IMG/VR virus record: IMGVR_UViG_3300046660_000793
Span: 1 to 20,142 of that record
Length of the DNA stretch: 20,142 nucleotides
Strand: one strand, 5' to 3'
From: a virus
Position 1 is the first letter of the stretch; each line of letters starts with the position of its first letter. The notes beneath the pieces are model-generated. The model searched no databases, was not told where the DNA came from, and was given only the letters and a program-made list of their open reading frames with translations. A program made the translations under genes and the position numbers. Below, one piece after another: positions 1,382-20,142 of the stretch.

Positions 1382-1861
1382 ATGGCGGCACTCAAGGATG
1401 ACGTAAAAGCCTTCATCGTGCAGGCCCTGGCGTGCTTCGACAAGCCCACGCAGGTCGTCGCATCGGTCAAGGAACAGTTCAGGCTCGACGTGACGCGCCA
1501 GCAGGTCGAGACATACGATCCGACCAAGTACGCCGGCCGGACGCTGAACATCAAGTGGCGCACGCTCTTTGAGGACACGCGCAAACGCTTCCGCGAGGAG
1601 TCCGCCGAGATCGGTATCGCCAATCGCGCCTATCGGCTGCGCCTGTTGGACCGGGCCGCCGAGAAGGCCGAGGTCAAGGGCAACTTGCCGCTCATGATGC
1701 AGATCGTCGAGCAGGCCGCCAAGGAAGTAGGCGACGTCTATGTGAACCGCCGCCTCGAAGCGCCGAAAGCGCCTGTCGGTACCCAGGAGGGCGGAATCCC
1801 GGCCGCGCCCGAGTATGTGCTGAAGCCAGACGAAGATGTCCCAGAACAGCCCGTACTCTGA
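1382..1861 (+). CDS. DUF2280-type protein, probable small terminase subunit
   Basis: Protein of 159 residues that looks like the DUF2280 family, which sits immediately before the large terminase in many proteobacterial phages and is taken to be the DNA-recognising small terminase subunit. The N-terminal half carries the family pattern: a helical start (LKDDVKAFIVQALACFDKP) followed by a helix-turn-helix-like segment ending in VETYDPTKY. The middle is a long charged helix around residues 65-115, suitable for oligomerisation. The C-terminus is Pro-rich and disordered. A GGAAGG Shine-Dalgarno lies about 8 bases before the ATG. The gene overlaps the terminase ORF by 26 bases, indicating coupled translation. 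DNA-binding role is inferred from family and position. Confidence 0.78.
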   Translation: MAALKDDVKAFIVQALACFDKPTQVVASVKEQFRLDVTRQQVETYDPTKYAGRTLNIKWRTLFEDTRKRFREESAEIGIANRAYRLRLLDRAAEKAEVKGNLPLMMQIVEQAAKEVGDVYVNRRLEAPKAPVGTQEGGIPAAPEYVLKPDEDVPEQPVL

Positions 1862-4028
1862 TCCGCCGATCGCGCTGACGCCGAAGCAGGCGAACATCTA
1901 CGTCTGGGGCTGGCAGAAGAAGTCTCGATTCCGCGATGCGGTTTGCGGCCGGCGCTTCGGCAAGACGTTCCTGGGCAAGGCGGAGATTCGGCGCGCTGTG
2001 CGGCTGGCCGCCAAGTGGGGCGTCAGCGTCGAGGACGAGATCTGGTACTGCGCGCCGACCTTCAAGCAGGCGAAGCGCGTATTCTGGCGCCGCCTCAAGC
2101 AGGCGATCCCGGCAAGCTGGCGCGCGACCAAGCCGAACGAGACTGAGTGCTCGATCACCACCAAGGCCGGGCACGTTGTGCGCATCGTCGGCCTGGACGC
2201 CTACGACAACCTGCGCGGCTCCGGCCTGTTCTTCGCGCTGGTCGATGAATGGGCGGACTGCCCGTATGCGGCCTGGGAAGAGGTGCTCCGCCCGATGCTG
2301 TCCACCTGCAAGTTCACCATCGACGGTGAGCAGCGGGTCGGCGGCCACGCGCTGCGCATCGGCACGCCGAAGGGCTTCAACCACTGCTACGACAGCTACC
2401 TGGATGGCCAGGGGCGCGAGCCGGATCATAAGAGCTGGCTCTACACCTCGGTGGATGGCGGCAACGTCCCAGCCGAGGAGATCGAGGCGGCGCGGCGCAA
2501 GATGGATCCGCGCACGTTCCGCCAGGAGTACCTGGCCAGCTTCGAGAACTACCAGGGTGTCATCTACTACTGCTTCGACCGGCGCAAGAACTGCACGGAT
2601 GACACGGTCAAGCCCGGCGACGCACTGCACATCGGCATGGACTTCAACGTCGCGCACATGGCGGCCGTGGTCTTCGTGATCCGCGACGACATGCCGCGCG
2701 CGGTCGATGAATTCATGGAGGTGTTCGACACGCCGGCCATGATCGAGAAGATCAAAGCGAAGTACCAGCAGGTCGGCCAGCAGCATGCCATCGCGGTCTA
2801 TCCAGATGCCTCCGGACAGAACCGGAAGTCCAGCGGTGCGAGCGAGTCGGACTTGACGCTGCTGCGCGCCGCGAAGTTCACCGTCGTGGTGGACCACAGC
2901 AAGACGACCGGCGACATAGTGCGCGAGATTCGCGGGACCAAGGCGCTGAAGTACGCTGACGGCTTGCTCGACACGAGCCGGCGCCAGGTTGACGCCGTGG
3001 TGCGCACCGCGCTGAGCCACACTGGCCAGATCACCCGGACGCGCTTCACGCAAGAGAACGAGGACATTCTCGGCGATGAGATGTGGGTCAGTACCCTGGA
3101 CGGCAAGACCAGCCCCGAGTGCCGCGCCCGTGATCACCTTATGTACACGAAGGTCGACCACAAGCCTGTCGGTCACAGCGTGCCATGGCGCGCCGGGCCC
3201 GGCCGGTTGCACTGGTGCTGCCGTTCCACCTCGATCGCGCTACTGAAGGGCCAGAAGGCCCTGTATGGCAGTCGCGCTGCCGCCGGCGGCCCTGTCGATG
3301 GCAGCCTGACCTACAACGACTGGCTCAAGCAGCAATCGGCGGAGGTGCAGGACCAGGTGCTGGGCAAGGCCAAGGGCGAGAAATACCGCGCCGGCAAGTA
3401 CGACGCATCGATCTTCACGAACGACAAGGGGCGCACGCTCACACTGAAGGAAATGGCGGACCGCGAGGCGCGCGCCTTCAAGCAACCATCGGGCGAGTTC
3501 ACCATTTACGACCCGGGCTACAAGCGCGTGGCGCCGGACGTCAGCACGCCCGCCCGCGCGGCGGCCGTCAAGATCGAAGACGCGATCCGCAATGAGAAGA
3601 ACGAGTTCGGTGCCTTCGTGGCGCCGGATGGCCAGGTGCTGCTGAGGCGGTCTGGTTTGCCTGACCAGGTCACGTTCTTCGAAGACGAACTGGCAACGAT
3701 GAAGGGGGCGGTGTTCACGCACAACCACCCGGGCGGCCTGAGCTTCTCGCCGGCGGACGTGCGGAACGCCGCCTTCTCCGACCTGGCGGAGGTCCGCGCC
3801 GTAGCGCCGCAGTATCGGCACATGATGTCGGCTAAGGGTAAGTGGCCTGCCGAGGCAGATATCGACCCAGCGTTTAATGCCGAATTAACGAAGGCCCAGG
3901 CCGATGTTGCTACAATGGTCAAGACCAATCAGCTGAATGTGAAGTACGCACCGGCTGAGATTCACCATTTGGCCTGGACTCGCGCTGCCGCGAAGCTGGG
4001 TCTGACCTACACCCGCGAGGCATCTTGA
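1836..4028 (+). CDS. Chimeric ORF: large terminase N-part fused to MuF-type minor head C-part
   Basis: This 730-residue ORF is two unrelated proteins in one frame. Residues 1 to about 353 are the terminase ATPase and the beginning of its nuclease: Walker A GRRFGKT at 38-44, Walker B LFFALVDEW at 131-139, coupling motif GTPKG at 176-180, and nuclease aspartates at 269 (GMDFNVAH) and 324 (YPDASG). The C-terminal nuclease acid that closes the active site is absent. From about residue 358 the sequence becomes the MuF/gp7-like head morphogenesis domain (IVREIRGTKALKYADG, STLDGKTSPEC, LHWCCRST). A JAB/JAMM-like domain follows, with HNHPGG at 629-634 and Asp at 641. The terminase end, the whole portal gene and the MuF N-terminus are missing. 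Neither half is expected to work as a normal terminase or minor head protein. An assembly error is the main alternative to a genuine deletion. Confidence 0.88.
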   Translation: MSQNSPYSDPPIALTPKQANIYVWGWQKKSRFRDAVCGRRFGKTFLGKAEIRRAVRLAAKWGVSVEDEIWYCAPTFKQAKRVFWRRLKQAIPASWRATKPNETECSITTKAGHVVRIVGLDAYDNLRGSGLFFALVDEWADCPYAAWEEVLRPMLSTCKFTIDGEQRVGGHALRIGTPKGFNHCYDSYLDGQGREPDHKSWLYTSVDGGNVPAEEIEAARRKMDPRTFRQEYLASFENYQGVIYYCFDRRKNCTDDTVKPGDALHIGMDFNVAHMAAVVFVIRDDMPRAVDEFMEVFDTPAMIEKIKAKYQQVGQQHAIAVYPDASGQNRKSSGASESDLTLLRAAKFTVVVDHSKTTGDIVREIRGTKALKYADGLLDTSRRQVDAVVRTALSHTGQITRTRFTQENEDILGDEMWVSTLDGKTSPECRARDHLMYTKVDHKPVGHSVPWRAGPGRLHWCCRSTSIALLKGQKALYGSRAAAGGPVDGSLTYNDWLKQQSAEVQDQVLGKAKGEKYRAGKYDASIFTNDKGRTLTLKEMADREARAFKQPSGEFTIYDPGYKRVAPDVSTPARAAAVKIEDAIRNEKNEFGAFVAPDGQVLLRRSGLPDQVTFFEDELATMKGAVFTHNHPGGLSFSPADVRNAAFSDLAEVRAVAPQYRHMMSAKGKWPAEADIDPAFNAELTKAQADVATMVKTNQLNVKYAPAEIHHLAWTRAAAKLGLTYTREAS
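2885..2920 (+). other. Inferred deletion junction terL / muF
   Basis: Within this interval the translated sequence passes from terminase nuclease (ending near FTVVVD) to MuF-type sequence (beginning near GDIVREIRG). The exact break cannot be placed without an intact relative. The fusion is in frame, and no direct repeat or mobile element is visible at the site. Confidence 0.7.
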
Positions 4029-4297
4029 ACACCGGAATCAACAGTGATCTGCAAGCCACCAGCGTCCCGTCGGTAGACGAGCTGCGCGCGCGCCTGCTGC
4101 CGCCGCCCGGGCACGAGGGCGACGTCGTCGCGCTGGTCAACGGTCACCGCGTGTGGAAAAAGCGGGTGGACTTGGCCGCCGGCGAGCCGTACATCCCGTT
4201 CTTCGGCGGTGACTGCAGCGCGGTGCTGAAGCCTGACGATCCCCGGATCGCAACGCCAGCACCGGCGCCGGAGGAGGTCAAGTGGCCCTCCATCTGA
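4025..4297 (+). CDS. Hypothetical phage protein (90 aa, TTG start)
   Basis: Small protein of unknown function. It begins with a TTG at 4025 that overlaps the TGA of the terminase-MuF ORF (4026-4028), behind a GCGAGG-like ribosome binding site. No ATG or early GTG exists in frame, which supports the unusual start. The sequence has a helical N-terminus (VDELRARLLPPPG), a central beta-rich part (VVALVNGHRVWKKRVDL) and a Pro/Ala-rich tail. Its 3' end overlaps the next gene by 16 bases. In an intact phage it would follow the minor head gene; no function can be assigned. Confidence 0.6.
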   Translation: MNTGINSDLQATSVPSVDELRARLLPPPGHEGDVVALVNGHRVWKKRVDLAAGEPYIPFFGGDCSAVLKPDDPRIATPAPAPEEVKWPSI

Positions 4298-7532: not shown

Positions 7533-9053
7533 ATGCCCACTACCACCACGATTAAAGTCGGCGAGAGCGCCAAGACCATCACCTTGGAAGAGGGGCGCGT
7601 GCTAACGCTGAGCTGCGAGGCTGGCAGTTCAGGCACTGCGTATCTGCTGGACCCGGCACTTGGCGGCAATAACTCCTCGCGCTCGTGGTCGGTGACTTCG
7701 AATGGCATGGTGCAGGTTGGCCCGGCCGTCGGCAACCAGAAGGTGCTGGTGACTTGCGCGGCTGGCAGCATCTCCGCGACAGTCGGCTCATCCTCGCTGG
7801 CCCCAAGCGCGATCGCCCGTGCGACCTTTGGCGCTGTTCGAAAGTCTTCGGGCCGTGGCGCTCTCCGTCCAGTCAGCTGTCTAATCAGTCAGAGCATCGG
7901 CGCCGGCGCCGGTACCGGCCAAACCATCGACAACGAATGGGCCGCCGACGCGCCATTCGTTGGTGTCATCCCGATCTTCTGGAACTGGGATACGGCGGCG
8001 CCGCTGACCATCACCAAGGCGGGCATCGCGCCGTCGCCGCGCTCGTTGACACCCACGCAAACCGCACTGGCTACTGCGATGGGCGGGGCATTCGCTGCGC
8101 TGACCGCAAACAATGGGCAGGCGACGTTCCAGGTTCCCGTGGCCACCGGTACTGACGTTGTTGGCGCGAACCCTACGAACGTGGTCCCCACGCCGCTCCG
8201 TGGCGACCTTACGGTCGTGAGCAGCATTCCGCGCCTCGATAATGCGGCCGGCCTCCCGTTGGCACGTACGCTCGTTTTCGTCCCGGACAGTTCGATCCTC
8301 GGCAGCAACGGCAATCCTGCGGATTGGGCGACCTATAACGCCGATCCGCGCTACGCCGGCCGCAGCCTGGGCATGTACAAACAGAACGGTGACAAGGTCA
8401 CCACGCCGGCCGGCACCAACGTGTTGGCAAATGGCGGTGTGCTTGGCCTCGCCGCACTCGAATTCATTTACGGGAAGAATACATGGACGATTGCCGAGGC
8501 CGGTGACTCGCAGTTCCAGGGCGTTGGTTCCACCGGCAACTACGCAGGTCCCGTGCTTCTGGCGTGTGCCAAATTGAGCAACGCTGCGCGTCTGGTCTCA
8601 CCATTGCGCTCGGCGATGGCTGGCCAGAAGTACGAAGTATCGATCCGCCATGCGAAGAATCTACTGGCAAGCTCGGCGCCCGAGATCTTTGTGTTCCCAA
8701 ACTATTCGGTCAACGACGACGGTACGTTCGCGCTGGCAAAGGTCGAGAAATCGTGGGCTCTGTGTCAAGCATTTGCGGACGATTGCCGCCGTGCGGGCAC
8801 GATACCCATTCTTGCGACGGTATCCGCCAACGGCTCGGTCGGTTCGGCGGAAGCCAACCGCTTGGCAATGAATCAGCGAACCCGCGATTACTGCGTCGCC
8901 ACAGGCACTCTCCTGCTGGACCGTGCGGCAATCCTCGACAATGGCAACGTTCTGAAGGCTCAATACAACTTCGATGGCCTGCACTTCAATGATGCCGGCC
9001 ACGACGCTCTTGCAGTGGCGCTGACCGCGCTTCTGGATCCGGTGCTGCAATGA
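7533..9053 (+). CDS. SGNH/GDSL-family hydrolase in the head module
   Basis: Predicted 506-residue serine esterase/lipase-fold enzyme. The nucleophile motif is GDSQFQG with Ser326. A block resembling the oxyanion Asn motif is PNYSVND at 389-395 (Asn394). The catalytic Asp/His pair is D481-x-x-H484 in DGLHFND. The first 100 residues are a beta-rich, Ig-like or decoration-type domain (TITLEEGRVLTLSCEAG...KVLVTCAAGSISATVG), so the enzyme may be fixed to the particle. The catalytic region is roughly residues 155-506. There is no signal peptide. Likely substrates are O-acetyl or other ester groups of a surface polysaccharide, but that is inference. It sits between capsid and connector genes and its TGA overlaps the next ATG (ATGA at 9050-9053), so it is translated with virion genes. 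Confidence 0.82.
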   Translation: MPTTTTIKVGESAKTITLEEGRVLTLSCEAGSSGTAYLLDPALGGNNSSRSWSVTSNGMVQVGPAVGNQKVLVTCAAGSISATVGSSSLAPSAIARATFGAVRKSSGRGALRPVSCLISQSIGAGAGTGQTIDNEWAADAPFVGVIPIFWNWDTAAPLTITKAGIAPSPRSLTPTQTALATAMGGAFAALTANNGQATFQVPVATGTDVVGANPTNVVPTPLRGDLTVVSSIPRLDNAAGLPLARTLVFVPDSSILGSNGNPADWATYNADPRYAGRSLGMYKQNGDKVTTPAGTNVLANGGVLGLAALEFIYGKNTWTIAEAGDSQFQGVGSTGNYAGPVLLACAKLSNAARLVSPLRSAMAGQKYEVSIRHAKNLLASSAPEIFVFPNYSVNDDGTFALAKVEKSWALCQAFADDCRRAGTIPILATVSANGSVGSAEANRLAMNQRTRDYCVATGTLLLDRAAILDNGNVLKAQYNFDGLHFNDAGHDALAVALTALLDPVLQ

Positions 9054-9936: not shown

Positions 9937-10307
9937 CCGACTACGCCAAGAAGGCCCGCGAGACCGACGCCAAGCTGCGGAAGAAGGGTGGCACCGTCAC
10001 CTTGCGCCGCATCGTGCTGGGTGATGATGATCCCGACACCGGTAAGCCGGCCAAGACCATCACCGACTACACGGCCGCCGGCGTGAAGCTGAACTACGAG
10101 GCGGATCGCATCGACGGCACGTTGATCCAGTCCGGCGACCAGCAGCTACTGCTCTCGCCACTGCAGCTGAACGGCCAGTCGCTTCCTGAGCCCACCGTCG
10201 GCGACCTGGTGCTGGCCGGCCCGGCCACCTTCGCAATCAAGTCGGTGGCGAAACTGCAGCCGACCGATGTGGCGCTGCTTTACACCCTGCAGCTGCGAGG
10301 CAACTGA
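9933..10307 (+). CDS. Head closure / tail-adaptor-type protein
   Basis: The 124-residue protein has the appearance of a phage head-closure (neck) protein: a helical start (YAKKARETDAKLRKKGG) followed by a beta-barrel-like part with VTLRRIVLGDDDPDTGKP, a DGTLIQSGDQQLLLS segment typical of such proteins, and a final strand VALLYTLQLRG. It probably closes the connector under the head before the tail joins. Its TGA ends at 10307, the same base that begins the next ATG (TGATG). Function is inferred from pattern and position. Confidence 0.65.
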   Translation: MTDYAKKARETDAKLRKKGGTVTLRRIVLGDDDPDTGKPAKTITDYTAAGVKLNYEADRIDGTLIQSGDQQLLLSPLQLNGQSLPEPTVGDLVLAGPATFAIKSVAKLQPTDVALLYTLQLRGN

Positions 10308-10786
10308 TGGCCGGCGGCTTCTCGGCGGACCTGACGAAGTTTCTCCGGCACTGCGACGGCAACATCGACAAGGCCCACCGCATGGCCGTGGTGCTGGTGG
10401 CGCAGGGCACAGTGCTGGGCTCGCCGGTAGATACCGGCCGGTTCCGCGCCAACTGGCAATTCGGCCGCGTGCTGCCGCAGGGCACGCTGGACCAGGTCGA
10501 CAAATCCGGCGCGGCCGCTATAGCGCGTATGGCCGGGCAGGTCACTAGCGTGAAAGCCGGCGGCGAGGTGTGGATCGTGAACAACCTGCCATACGCGGGC
10601 AAGCTGGAGTACGGCTACCGGTGGCGCTACTTCGAACAACAACAAGCTGTACACCATCACCGCGCTGACAGCGCTGGAAATGACCGTCGCCGAGACCGTG
10701 GCCGTGGCCGCCAGCACCGGCAGCATCGGCCTGACCGTGCCGGGCAAGATCACTTACATCCCCGAAAGCGGCCACACCAACGATAG
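10307..10786 (+). CDS. HK97 gp10-like neck protein with out-of-frame C-terminus
   Basis: Residues 1 to about 103 fit the HK97 gp10-like tail-completion family: a helical start, GSPVDTGRFRANWQ (38-51) and VWIVNNLPYAGKLEYGY near 88-104. Members normally continue a little further in a conserved helix after the YG motif. Here the sequence switches at about base 10617 to Arg/His/Gln-rich residues (RWRYFEQQQAVHHHRAD...) read out of frame through the tail tube coding region, until a stop at 10784-10786. The tail of 50-odd residues is therefore artefactual, and the real protein is truncated. This is the signature of a deletion joining this gene to the tail tube gene. Function is probably impaired. 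Confidence 0.75.
   Translation: MAGGFSADLTKFLRHCDGNIDKAHRMAVVLVAQGTVLGSPVDTGRFRANWQFGRVLPQGTLDQVDKSGAAAIARMAGQVTSVKAGGEVWIVNNLPYAGKLEYGYRWRYFEQQQAVHHHRADSAGNDRRRDRGRGRQHRQHRPDRAGQDHLHPRKRPHQR
10612..10640 (+). other. Inferred deletion junction neck gene / tail tube gene
   Basis: Frame 2 (neck protein) loses its family pattern after LEYGY. Frame 3 gains tail-tube-like sequence from about NNKLYTITALTALEM. No start codon or Shine-Dalgarno separates them. Sequence between the two, including the tube N-terminus and probably a tail terminator gene, is missing. Confidence 0.65.
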
Positions 10787-11390
10787 CTTCACCATCGAGA
10801 AGTGGTATTCGGCCGTGGCTGAGTCGTACCGCTTCACCGGTCAGCGTGTCGCCTCGATCGGCATCGGTCTGGCCGCCGACGACAAGGTCTCGGCCGATAT
10901 CGCCTACATGGGGCAGGATCGTCAGAAGGCTGGCGTGGCGTACTTCACTGCGCCGGCGGCGCCGGGCGGCGGCGACATGCTGGTGACCCCGTCCGGCCTG
11001 GCCGTGATCAACGGGGCCGCGACCAAGGTCTGCACGAACTTCAGCGTCGATATCAACGGCAACGCTTCGGTCGGCAAGGTGGTGGGCGCGAACGTCACCC
11101 CGGACGTCTTCATGGACATGATCGACGTCACCGGCCAGATCAGCGTGTACTACGAGAACGGCGTCATGGACGACTACTTCGACCAGGAGACCGCGATCTC
11201 GCTGATCAACCGCCTGGACGACGGTATCGGCGGCGCCTTCGTGATCGCTATGCCATACGTGAAGGTCTTCGGTGGCGGCGAATCCGGGGACAAGGAAATC
11301 ATCCGGCAGTACGACTACGTGGCCGGCCCGAATGCGGCCGGCACCGGCGCCGGCAAGTCCACCATCCTGCTGCAAGACACCACCCTGTAA
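10680..11390 (+). CDS. Major tail tube protein, N-terminally truncated
   Basis: Tail tube subunit that would polymerise around the tape measure. The readable sequence contains the family signature ITYIPESGHTNDSFTIEKWYSA, then VASIGIGLAADDKVSADIAYMG, repeated beta-strand segments and DQETAISLINRLDDGIGG, ending at TAA 11388-11390. It matches the C-terminal two thirds of the long tube family (Phage_tube_2-like). In-frame tube sequence continues upstream of the ATG at 10680 (LYTITALTALE) to about 10620, where it meets the neck gene. ATG 10680 is thus an internal Met and has no proper ribosome site (GGAA abuts it). The native start and about 60-100 N-terminal residues are lost. A terminator follows at 11399. 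Identity is fairly sure; function is doubtful. Confidence 0.78.
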   Translation: MTVAETVAVAASTGSIGLTVPGKITYIPESGHTNDSFTIEKWYSAVAESYRFTGQRVASIGIGLAADDKVSADIAYMGQDRQKAGVAYFTAPAAPGGGDMLVTPSGLAVINGAATKVCTNFSVDINGNASVGKVVGANVTPDVFMDMIDVTGQISVYYENGVMDDYFDQETAISLINRLDDGIGGAFVIAMPYVKVFGGGESGDKEIIRQYDYVAGPNAAGTGAGKSTILLQDTTL

Positions 11391-12376: not shown

Positions 12377-14152
12377 ATGACCGTTGATATCGCCACTCTC
12401 GCAATCCGGATCGATTCGACTTCGGTCGCGCCTGCAACGGCGAACCTCGAACGCATGCGAGATGCTGGCGCGCGTGCCGAGCAGCAGACCACGGCGCTTG
12501 ATGCCGCCACGCGCAAGCTGCAGGGCGCACTCGCACTGCTGGGCGTCGGCGCAGGCGTCGGTGCAATCATCCGCATGGCCGATGAATACACGAAGTACAA
12601 CGCACAGATCAAGCTGGCCACGCAGTCACAGCGCGAGTACTCCGCCGCCGTGGACGAGGTTCGCCGCATCGCGAACCTCGCTCAGCAGGATCTGGCCGCG
12701 ACCGGGACTCTGTACGCCCGCATCGCCAACGGCACGCGCGAGCTGGGCGTGCAGCAGAAGCAGGTGGCAGCGATCACCGAGACCGTCAACCTCGCGCTGA
12801 AGGTATCCGGCGCCACGGCCGCCGAGTCGGCATCGGCACAGCTGCAGCTGTCCCAGGCATTCGCCTCCGGCACGCTGCGGGGCGAGGAGTTCAACGCGGT
12901 GAACGAGGCGGCGCCGCGCCTGATGAAGGCCTTGGCCGACGGCATGGGCGTGCCCATCGGGGCGCTGCGCAACATGGCGTCCGAAGGTCAGATCACGTCC
13001 AAGATCATGGCCGATGTGCTTCCGGGCGCGCTGGCGCAGTTGCGCGAGGAAGCGAAGCAGGTCCAGACCATCGGCGGCGCCTTCACCGTCCTGAAGAACA
13101 ACATCATGGAGTTCGTGGGCGTGCAGGCGCAGGCCAGCGGCACGGTGTCGGTGCTGACTACGGGCATCGAAGCCCTGGCCAACAACCTGAACCTGCTGGC
13201 CGGCGTGGCCGGCACCTTGGCGGCCGTGAACGTCGCCAACTGGCTCACCGCCTGGACCGTGAAGACCTACGAGCGCGTCACGGCGGCGTACGCTCAGGTC
13301 GCGGCTGAGAATGCGGCGCGGGCAGCCACCATAGCTGCTGCCGAGGCTGATGTAGCAGCTGCAGCGGCAGCCGGCGCACTGGCCGAAGCTACCCAGGTCG
13401 GAATCTTAATCGCGCGTGAAGAGGCCGTTGCTCGCCTGGCTCAGGCGCGCACGAACATGCTCGCCGCCAGTGCGGCCATTGAAGCGGCGACCGCCGCCGG
13501 CGCTCAGAGCTTTGCGCTGCGCACGCTTCGTCTAGCCACTGCCGAATTGGCGGTGGCTGAAGCCGCGCGCGCCGCCCAGATCGCTGAGCTTGCCCTGCTG
13601 GGACAACAGCAGGCCCGCGTTTCCGCACAAATCACTGCAGCCGCTGCCGCGCAGACCGCTGCTCAGACCGCGCTCAACGCTGCCAACGGCGTTAGTGTTG
13701 CATCGATCGGCCTTGCGAGCCGCGCCATGGGTCTGCTGGGTGGTCCAATCGGCGCCGTCGTGACGCTGCTCGGCCTCGCCGCAACTGCATGGTCGGTCTG
13801 GGGCAGCAAGTCGAAAGAAGCTACCGCGCAGGCCGCCGAGTCGTTCGACGAAGCTCAGGTCCGCATCATCAAGGGCTTGGACGAGCAAATCGCCAGGAAT
13901 GAAAGACTGATCCAGCTGCAAAGCGGCGGCATGGACAAGGCGAAGGCTGACAAGAATCTTGAATCGGTAAATCAGTTGGCGCAAGCATCGAAGCGCCTCA
14001 ACGATATAAATAATCAAGCTGGTGAGTTCGCACCAGGCAAAGGCAAGAGCGATTACGACCTCATGCTAGCTCGCGCGAAGGTGATGCAGGACACCCTTGA
14101 GGCCTCGGCAAATGGGGACGTGCCTCTGGCGACGAAGGAGTTAGCAGCATGA
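12377..14152 (+). CDS. Tape measure protein, probably C-terminally truncated
   Basis: Sets tail length and is packed inside the tube. Residues about 60-265 match the conserved N-terminal tape-measure domain (MADEYTKYNAQIKLATQS, LYARIANGTRELGVQQKQ, LSQAFASGTLRGEEFNAVNE, LKNNIMEFVG). Residues 295-440 are an extremely Ala-rich coiled coil. A hydrophobic hairpin follows (GLASRAMGLLGGPIGAVVTL to WSVWG), then a charged helix. At 591 residues the protein is short for the family, and it stops soon after LMLARAKVMQDTLEASAN. The last residues (ATKELAA) carry the AAGGAG ribosome site of the next gene and could be the true end of a different upstream gene. I infer a deletion near 14090-14130. A naturally short tape measure is the alternative. 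Its start has only a weak ribosome site. Confidence 0.85.
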   Translation: MTVDIATLAIRIDSTSVAPATANLERMRDAGARAEQQTTALDAATRKLQGALALLGVGAGVGAIIRMADEYTKYNAQIKLATQSQREYSAAVDEVRRIANLAQQDLAATGTLYARIANGTRELGVQQKQVAAITETVNLALKVSGATAAESASAQLQLSQAFASGTLRGEEFNAVNEAAPRLMKALADGMGVPIGALRNMASEGQITSKIMADVLPGALAQLREEAKQVQTIGGAFTVLKNNIMEFVGVQAQASGTVSVLTTGIEALANNLNLLAGVAGTLAAVNVANWLTAWTVKTYERVTAAYAQVAAENAARAATIAAAEADVAAAAAAGALAEATQVGILIAREEAVARLAQARTNMLAASAAIEAATAAGAQSFALRTLRLATAELAVAEAARAAQIAELALLGQQQARVSAQITAAAAAQTAAQTALNAANGVSVASIGLASRAMGLLGGPIGAVVTLLGLAATAWSVWGSKSKEATAQAAESFDEAQVRIIKGLDEQIARNERLIQLQSGGMDKAKADKNLESVNQLAQASKRLNDINNQAGEFAPGKGKSDYDLMLARAKVMQDTLEASANGDVPLATKELAA

Positions 14153-19201: not shown

Positions 19202-19444
19202 CTACCTGGCGCCGCCGGCGCCATCGACGCGACCAACGACCACCAACTGGCCGGGTCTGAACACCTCGTTCATCGGCTCGCCGTCGAGCACCCACTCGCA
19301 CAAGATACCGTTCCTCACTCCCTCCACAACGTGTTCCTCGCCCAAGGCAGGGCACGTCACCCACATGACCTGGCCATCCGGATCGCCGAGCATGCGCACC
19401 AGGTCGCCCTCGGCCGGGCGGCCGCCATCAAGTTCTTCTGTCAT
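19202..19444 (-). CDS. Small protein overlapping the SRAP gene (80 aa)
   Basis: The ATG (bases 19444-19442) overlaps the SRAP stop as ATGA, so the two form a coupled pair on the - strand. The sequence is beta-rich and acidic with GDLVRMLGDPDGQVMWVTCP near the start and CEWVLDGEPMNEVFRPGQLVVV near the end, a pattern faintly like small SH3/KOW-barrel or YodC-type proteins. The end is a Gly/Ala-rich tail. Function unknown; a partner or regulator of the SRAP protein is possible from the overlap alone. Its TAG lies 3 bases from the endolysin stop. A frame extending further upstream to 19603 is the shadow of the SRAP gene. Confidence 0.6.
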   Translation of the reverse strand: MTEELDGGRPAEGDLVRMLGDPDGQVMWVTCPALGEEHVVEGVRNGILCEWVLDGEPMNEVFRPGQLVVVGRVDGAGGAR

Positions 19445-20142
19445 AGCAATCCCATCTGTGAGTCTGGCGCCGGCGTGACCGGCTCCTGTTTCTTGGGGCG
19501 CGGCGGTATCGGGAATGCCCATGCCCGCATCAGCTCCGCAGGGTAGTGGCGCAGGAAGCTGCGCGCGTACTCTGGATTGGTGCACGCCAGCCAGTCGTCC
19601 CATTCGTCTTTGTGCACAATTACCAACGCGCGCTTCTCGTCGTCAGGCTTGTGAAATCTTCGCATCAGTGTGTGGTCGTCCGCGTTGATGGTTACTTGAG
19701 TAAAGCTGCGCTCCGTTCCCTTCTCTCCCTCCCATTCTCGCCACAGGCCGCAGACCGCGAACATCGACTGGTCAGCCATGCCGATCCCCCATCGAACCGG
19801 TTTGCCGGTCTCGTAATTTGGCTCGTAGAAGGCCGTCATCGGAACCAGGCATAGCTGACTGCGCCGCCACGCTGCCGAGTATGAACGCTTCTCCCCAATC
19901 GTCTCCGCACGAGCGTTCATGGTCTCAAAAACCTTCACGCCTGGCGGTATTTGCTTTCGCGGCACCATCCCGTAGGTCGCTCGCGCCACTTCTCTTTTGC
20001 CATTCGCGCCAAGGCGTACGATTGGCGCTACCTTGTCCTTCCAAGTCTCACGCTCCCAGAAGCCAGTGTCGTGCAGGTTGATGATCACGCCCATGACGGA
20101 TTCGAGCATTTCAGGATCTGGAGGGCGGAAGTTGACGCACAT
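19441..20142 (-). CDS. SRAP-family protein (SOS response-associated, YedK/HMCES-like)
   Basis: The 233-residue protein begins MCVNF, so Cys2 becomes the N-terminal residue after Met removal, the hallmark of SRAP proteins that form a thiazolidine crosslink with abasic sites in single-stranded DNA. Other active-site residues are in place: Asn76 in MNARAET, Glu107 in TAFYEPNY, and His164 in RRFHKPDD. The core FAVCGLWREWEG matches the family. The usual 'RMP' beside the histidine is replaced by KPDDEKR. The C-terminus is Pro-rich. The start codon uses the last three bases of the window, so its promoter cannot be seen. It would protect or repair phage DNA; a role against host defence is speculation. 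It runs opposite to the late operon, as accessory 'moron' genes often do. Confidence 0.85.
   Translation of the reverse strand: MCVNFRPPDPEMLESVMGVIINLHDTGFWERETWKDKVAPIVRLGANGKREVARATYGMVPRKQIPPGVKVFETMNARAETIGEKRSYSAAWRRSQLCLVPMTAFYEPNYETGKPVRWGIGMADQSMFAVCGLWREWEGEKGTERSFTQVTINADDHTLMRRFHKPDDEKRALVIVHKDEWDDWLACTNPEYARSFLRHYPAELMRAWAFPIPPRPKKQEPVTPAPDSQMGLL

Follow-up and report, generated by a model that had tools for sequence, protein, structure and literature searches.

Does an open reading frame (ORF) that joins a terminase ATPase to a MuF/JAB C-terminus encode a new kind of phage protein, or does it mark the place where the DNA between two ordinary genes was lost? The question is raised by a 730-codon ORF of a viral contig from IMG/VR. 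The window analysed here is the whole record of 20,142 bp, which is classed as linear and is therefore probably a fragment. A first-pass annotation had explained the ORF by an in-frame deletion that took away the 3' end of terL, the portal gene and the 5' end of muF, and had also considered that the product might be a new functional ATPase-peptidase. The deletion is well supported by collinear relatives. There is no support for the new functional protein: the join occurs in this contig alone, TerL has lost its third nuclease acid and MuF its N-terminus, and two more deletions lie in the contig. What the record contains is a phage genome that has been damaged (unless the assembly is chimeric), and not a new kind of protein.

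The ORF (positions 1836-4028, plus strand; Table 1) is free of internal stops, as verified by an ORF check of the window, and has a native start context that overlaps the upstream gene, for which the same position next to terL is annotated in reference phages. PHROGs assigned residues 12-330 to TerL (phrog_2, E 6.6e-41) and residues 356-555 to head morphogenesis/MuF (phrog_241, E 8e-74). The Pfam matches of the ORF score under the curated cut-offs; in the MuF part, PF04233 gives a weak match with 23.8 bits against a cut-off of 29.6, covering profile positions 29-110 of 112. The motifs claimed for the terminase half could be located at residues 38-322. Walker A (GRRFGKT, residue 38), the Walker B region (VDEW, residue 136) and the coupling motif (GTPKG, residue 176) are all there, as in the ATPase of a functional TerL, and two nuclease acids are retained in MDFN (residue 268) and YPDASG (residue 322). 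A complete RNase H-like nuclease needs three metal-binding acids, and the third motif (DHGNDAGGY in relatives) was not found in the 730-aa ORF; it is gone with the last approximately 84 residues of TerL. The MuF part is not a separate gene right after a portal and does not possess the N-terminal 160 or so residues of a MuF protein.

The best relatives among viral contigs match only one half each, either residues 1-355 (at most 94% amino acid identity, with intact TerLs of 437-465 aa) or residues 343-730 (87%, with the MuF protein of L010/G002, which comprises 535 codons stop-to-stop). Together with the PHROGs ranges, these half-specific relatives confirm the jump near residue 355 that had been proposed. 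In the DNA alignment, the left half tracks its relatives up to about positions 2893-2910 and the right half from about positions 2892-2901 onwards, and the overlap consists only of the 4-bp GCAA of junction D1, which lies within the interval 2800-3000 suggested earlier. There is no step in base composition at D1. Large repeats are not a likely cause of a misjoin: only a two-copy direct repeat of 21 bp was detected, and it is located away from the junctions.

Table 1. Location of the chimeric ORF, its parts and neighbour, and the genes affected by the two further deletions
Feature	Position	Strand	Basis
Gene before terL, DUF2280 family, terminase-small-subunit position, intact	1382..1861	+	PF10045 E 1.9e-44, phrog_546
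Chimeric ORF, TerL residues 1-355 plus MuF C-terminal part	1836..4028	+	730 aa
TerL part, ATPase domain plus first two nuclease acids	1836..2900	+	motifs, identity to intact TerLs
Deletion junction D1, shared GCAA, in frame	2899..2902	+	left and right parental alignments
MuF part, without first ~160 codons	2901..4028	+	87% aa identity to L010/G002 MuF, phrog_241
RadC/JAB-like C-terminal domain, native to MuF in relatives	3471..4025	+	homologs L010, L014, L172, L111; model
Neck1/tail-completion protein, last ~28 codons lost	10307..10618	+	phrog_169; G010 ORF residue 171/199 last retained
Deletion junction D2, ~2 bp shared (AC), out of frame	10617..10618	+	junction alignments, G010 gene map
Remaining C-terminal part of tail protein (phrog_290)	10619..11390	+	corresponds to G010 residues 158-414 of 415
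Tape measure protein, internal in-frame deletion to 591 aa	12377..14152	+	relatives ~1,830-1,905 aa
Deletion junction D3 (approximate position)	14093..14105	+	comparison with L092, L093

Both halves proved to be collinear with intact terL-portal-muF operons, and all ten loci that can be aligned on both sides of D1 possess an additional block of 2,112-2,171 bp at this point. In L004, L005 and L012, both pieces are present with about 2.1 kb between them. The missing block comprises the 3' end of terL, the entire portal gene and approximately 160 codons of muF. A prophage on a Duganella margarita contig (G010) is collinear over the whole region and contains all missing pieces; its D1 interval encodes the last 84 or so residues of TerL, a portal of about 480 codons (stop-to-stop) and the first 160 or so codons of MuF. 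That the window holds no portal gene, as had been noted, is borne out by tblastn with the portals of five relatives. Neither these nor the TerL C-terminus, the MuF N-terminus, the tail terminator or the middle of the tape measure protein could be matched significantly anywhere in the window (E about 0.3 at best), and two retained genes used as controls matched it at 1e-90 to 1e-105. In Pseudoalteromonas phage H105/1 (L167), muF comes right after terL, with the portal gene about 2.5 kb downstream; the order in the relatives of the window is terL-portal-muF. A portal gene located elsewhere in the window, as in H105/1, does not come into consideration, since TerL and MuF are both truncated and there is no portal in the window.

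A fused protein might nevertheless be a trait of a whole phage family, and the same architecture was therefore looked for in relatives. Across all loci, 84 ORFs match TerL, and the ORF of the window is the only one that also matches MuF; the other TerL ORFs comprise 418-485 codons, and none of the 62 loci with TerL and MuF ORFs shows a fusion. No fusion was found in approximately 116 viral contigs, and no fused ORF exists in 17 genome loci or in 394 genomes of the host family. Likewise, no phage record (50,697 searched) and no plasmid record (72,556 searched) has a single place that covers 80% of the query. The fusion is thus absent from the phages, plasmids, viral contigs, genome contigs and family genomes searched, and it has to be rejected as a family trait. 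Two long TerL frames from the genomes of the host family were examined as candidates. The TerL frame of 760 aa in G325 owes its length to an intein-like insert, and portal and MuF are separate ORFs there; the open frame of 549 aa in G400 lies in a region with a TerL of 443 aa and separate ORFs for portal and MuF. The frame in G325 (L206, contig C5, minus strand, 1756-4038) comprises 760 codons including the intein-like block, with portal and MuF following separately.

That TerL and MuF/JAB form a functional fusion protein which has taken on a new role has, in our opinion, hardly any chance of being correct. The open frame of 730 codons with its native start overlapping the upstream gene, as well as the intact ATPase motifs and JAB-like domain, would be in accordance with such a protein, but the architecture is missing from every relative searched, the third nuclease acid and the MuF N-terminus are gone, and other essential late genes in the contig are also broken. 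A full-length model of the chimera (pLDDT 58) is too poor to be used and is uninformative for or against function. If the chimeric protein is made at all, it would most likely be a by-product without function, in which the ATPase domain is accompanied neither by a complete nuclease nor by the N-terminal region of MuF.

The C-terminal domain of the ORF had been described as JAB-like and as peptidase-like. The first description is correct. The HNHPGG motif is found at residue 629 (nucleotides 3720-3737), and a model of residues 546-730 (mean pLDDT 86) has RadC as its best PDB match (2qlc, probability 1.00, E 1e-3; TM 0.40-0.44, depending on the target), followed by JAMM1, with JAMM1 and AF2198 ranking lower than RadC. 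The predicted structure therefore belongs to the JAB/deaminase class of folds. Residues E45, H84, H86, S93 and D96 are invariant across alignment A2, so that the HxH, the downstream serine and aspartate and the upstream glutamate are all conserved; the spacing of the motif is presumably one residue shorter than that of the canonical one. Pfam gave no JAB/RadC match for this domain. As for the second description, a peptidase function is uncertain: RadC is the closest structure, and for the RadC clade of JAB proteins nucleic-acid processing has been argued to be likelier than peptidase activity (PMC5512222, PMC3482391), for which reason the term peptidase should not be taken for granted.

The same C-terminal domain is present in L010, L014, L172 and L111, and in L010 and L014 it is part of an intact MuF behind a portal. 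Judged by these sequences, the MuF-JAB half was not produced by the event, since the same protein stands behind a normal portal in intact relatives. This MuF-JAB type stands behind one TerL type in L010/G002, G390 and G051 and behind another in L014 and L172; the two TerL types are only about 31% identical, which shows module exchange between terL and muF. Directly after the MuF-JAB frame there is an ORF of 90 codons (4025-4297) that is conserved in G002 (83%). Small ORFs following MuF toxin genes have been proposed to encode immunity proteins (PMC5576092), and by analogy the position of this ORF would fit such a role.

Mapping of the whole window against its relatives revealed two further deletions, D2 and D3, that had been overlooked before. 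At D2, a block of 973-992 bp (about 976 bp) is missing relative to 15 of 15 collinear loci; with it went the last part of Neck1, the tail terminator and some 157 codons from the start of a tail protein. D3 lies in the tape measure gene, which retains its native start as well as its last 15 or so codons and the stop, and has lost about two thirds of its length (591 codons remain, against 1,833-1,905 in relatives). Here, 3,642 and 3,942 bp are missing relative to L092 and L093, respectively (two of two loci), both of which are multiples of three. Either D2 or D3 alone should be enough to prevent the assembly of virions. That two of the three junctions (D1 and D3) are in frame is unremarkable, since a single junction is expected to be so in one of three cases and the chance of at least two of three is about 0.26. 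At the two junctions that can be resolved (D1 and D2), 2-4 bp are shared. Outside the junctions, the other compared genes show no small frameshift or premature stop.

The last observation is the main point in favour of the principal rival of a deleted genome, namely a sequencing or assembly chimera. In this case, the phage genome would be intact, and the contig would have been built over chimeric library molecules or wrong joins at three places. We regard such an artefact as possible but on the whole rather unlikely. It would agree with three kilobase-sized deletions in a contig without any small lesion in its other genes, and also with the fact that the D1 junction occurs in no second record (an exact search of viral contigs did not find its sequence). 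However, the 2-4 bp shared at the resolved junctions are far below the k-mers of assemblers and too short for misjoins in a k-mer graph, so that an artefact would require reads from molecules that were already chimeric. Multiple displacement amplification (MDA) is an unusual source for three direct joins without any inversion, since direct joins of less than 10 kb made up only 11 of 475 MDA chimeras (PMC1855051). Template switching of the PCR type might still produce them.

Scaffold, capsid and lysis genes are retained in the contig. Three of its other genes deserve a comment. The gene at 540-1349 is labelled as transposase by PHROGs (phrog_513) but as a phage metallopeptidase by Pfam (PF18894, E 8.6e-41), and here the label from PHROGs seems to be wrong. 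A protein of 506 aa (7533-9053), encoded between the genes for the capsid and the head-tail proteins, has a GDSL-lipase-like C-terminal domain according to a weak Pfam match (E 1.2e-6, below the cut-off). The contig closes on the right with a gene for an SRAP (SOS response associated peptidase) protein (19441-20142, minus strand), which comes after the endolysin.

Several internal deletions with scaffold, capsid and lysis genes kept would also fit a shortened derivative supplied in trans, that is, a defective-interfering-like phage or satellite which is propagated by a helper and selected to lose bulky structural genes. We consider this very unlikely, as there is no sign of propagation and other structural genes are kept and not lost; moreover, the contig is a linear fragment and as such a poor basis for judging packaging and replication functions. 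There is only a very slim chance that such a derivative is stably propagated and that an expressed TerL ATPase-MuF/JAB chimera interferes with or parasitises the packaging of the helper phage.

The most probable explanation is, in our view, that the ORF is a deletion scar and that the genome around it, from a tailed phage or a prophage of an Oxalobacteraceae (Duganella/Janthinobacterium-like) host, is defective. Three kilobase-sized losses, independent of one another, hit packaging and tail genes, which fits a defective prophage or a deletion-derivative phage. Illegitimate recombination at microhomologies of 2-4 bp would have removed three separate blocks from the late operon, the first of which would have comprised the portal and the adjoining ends of terL (3') and muF (5') and left the reading frame intact by chance. 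The resulting phage or prophage would have lost the ability to form virions. The junctions then presumably exist in replicating DNA, and their source would be an integrated or helper-dependent defective phage. As in defective (cryptic) prophages, genes needed to make virions are affected, in that the portal and the tail terminator are missing along with most of the tape measure; the 20-kb linear contig contains no host flank. What counts against a deletion scar is the lack of small lesions in the compared genes, as decay would have to be recent and to consist of large deletions only. Both halves of the ORF show purifying selection (dN/dS 0.055-0.09), which reflects their history before the event; the values cannot date it, since the nearest relatives are at a synonymous distance of about 0.4-0.8.

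The present case calls for caution, since a domain architecture of a viral contig may look new and yet be no more than the junction of a deletion. Mapping of the whole contig to collinear relatives exposes this fast, as two further scars show up elsewhere in it. Real deletions would provide base-level examples of microhomology-type deletions in the packaging and tail operon of a phage; if they are artefactual, the record deserves a chimeric flag in the viral contig collection.

Compared with known systems, the window resembles cryptic or incomplete prophages that have lost lytic genes, as its portal, terminase and tail functions are affected, and incomplete prophages are known to be recognisable by the loss of their portal and terminase genes (PMC7744054). 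It differs from these in its three clean internal deletions with other genes apparently intact, and, being a fragment, it shows no integration. Its gene order on both sides of D1 is that of Klebsiella phage ST16-OXA48phi5.1, Pseudomonas phage YMC11/02/R656 and the Duganella prophage G010/L168. The two phages are annotated with terL, portal and a MuF-like protein in this order (the portal of ST16-OXA48phi5.1 as a DUF4055 hypothetical protein), in line with the described location of muF immediately downstream of the portal gene (PMC5576092). The relatives with intact operons, which are 71-94% identical in the TerL part and up to 82% (G010) or 87% (G002) in the MuF part, encode a complete TerL of about 440 aa, a portal of approximately 450-490 aa and a separate MuF of 355-585 aa, whereas the window lacks the middle 2.1 kb or so. 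By analogy, its right half may be compared to MuF polymorphic toxins, which consist of a MuF core and a variable C-terminal domain, here a RadC/JAB-like one, followed by a small ORF (PMC5576092); RadC/JAB domains also occur in phage polyvalent proteins (PMC5512222). Unlike in these toxins, the N-terminal 160 or so residues of MuF are replaced in the window by residues 1-355 of TerL, apparently by deletion.
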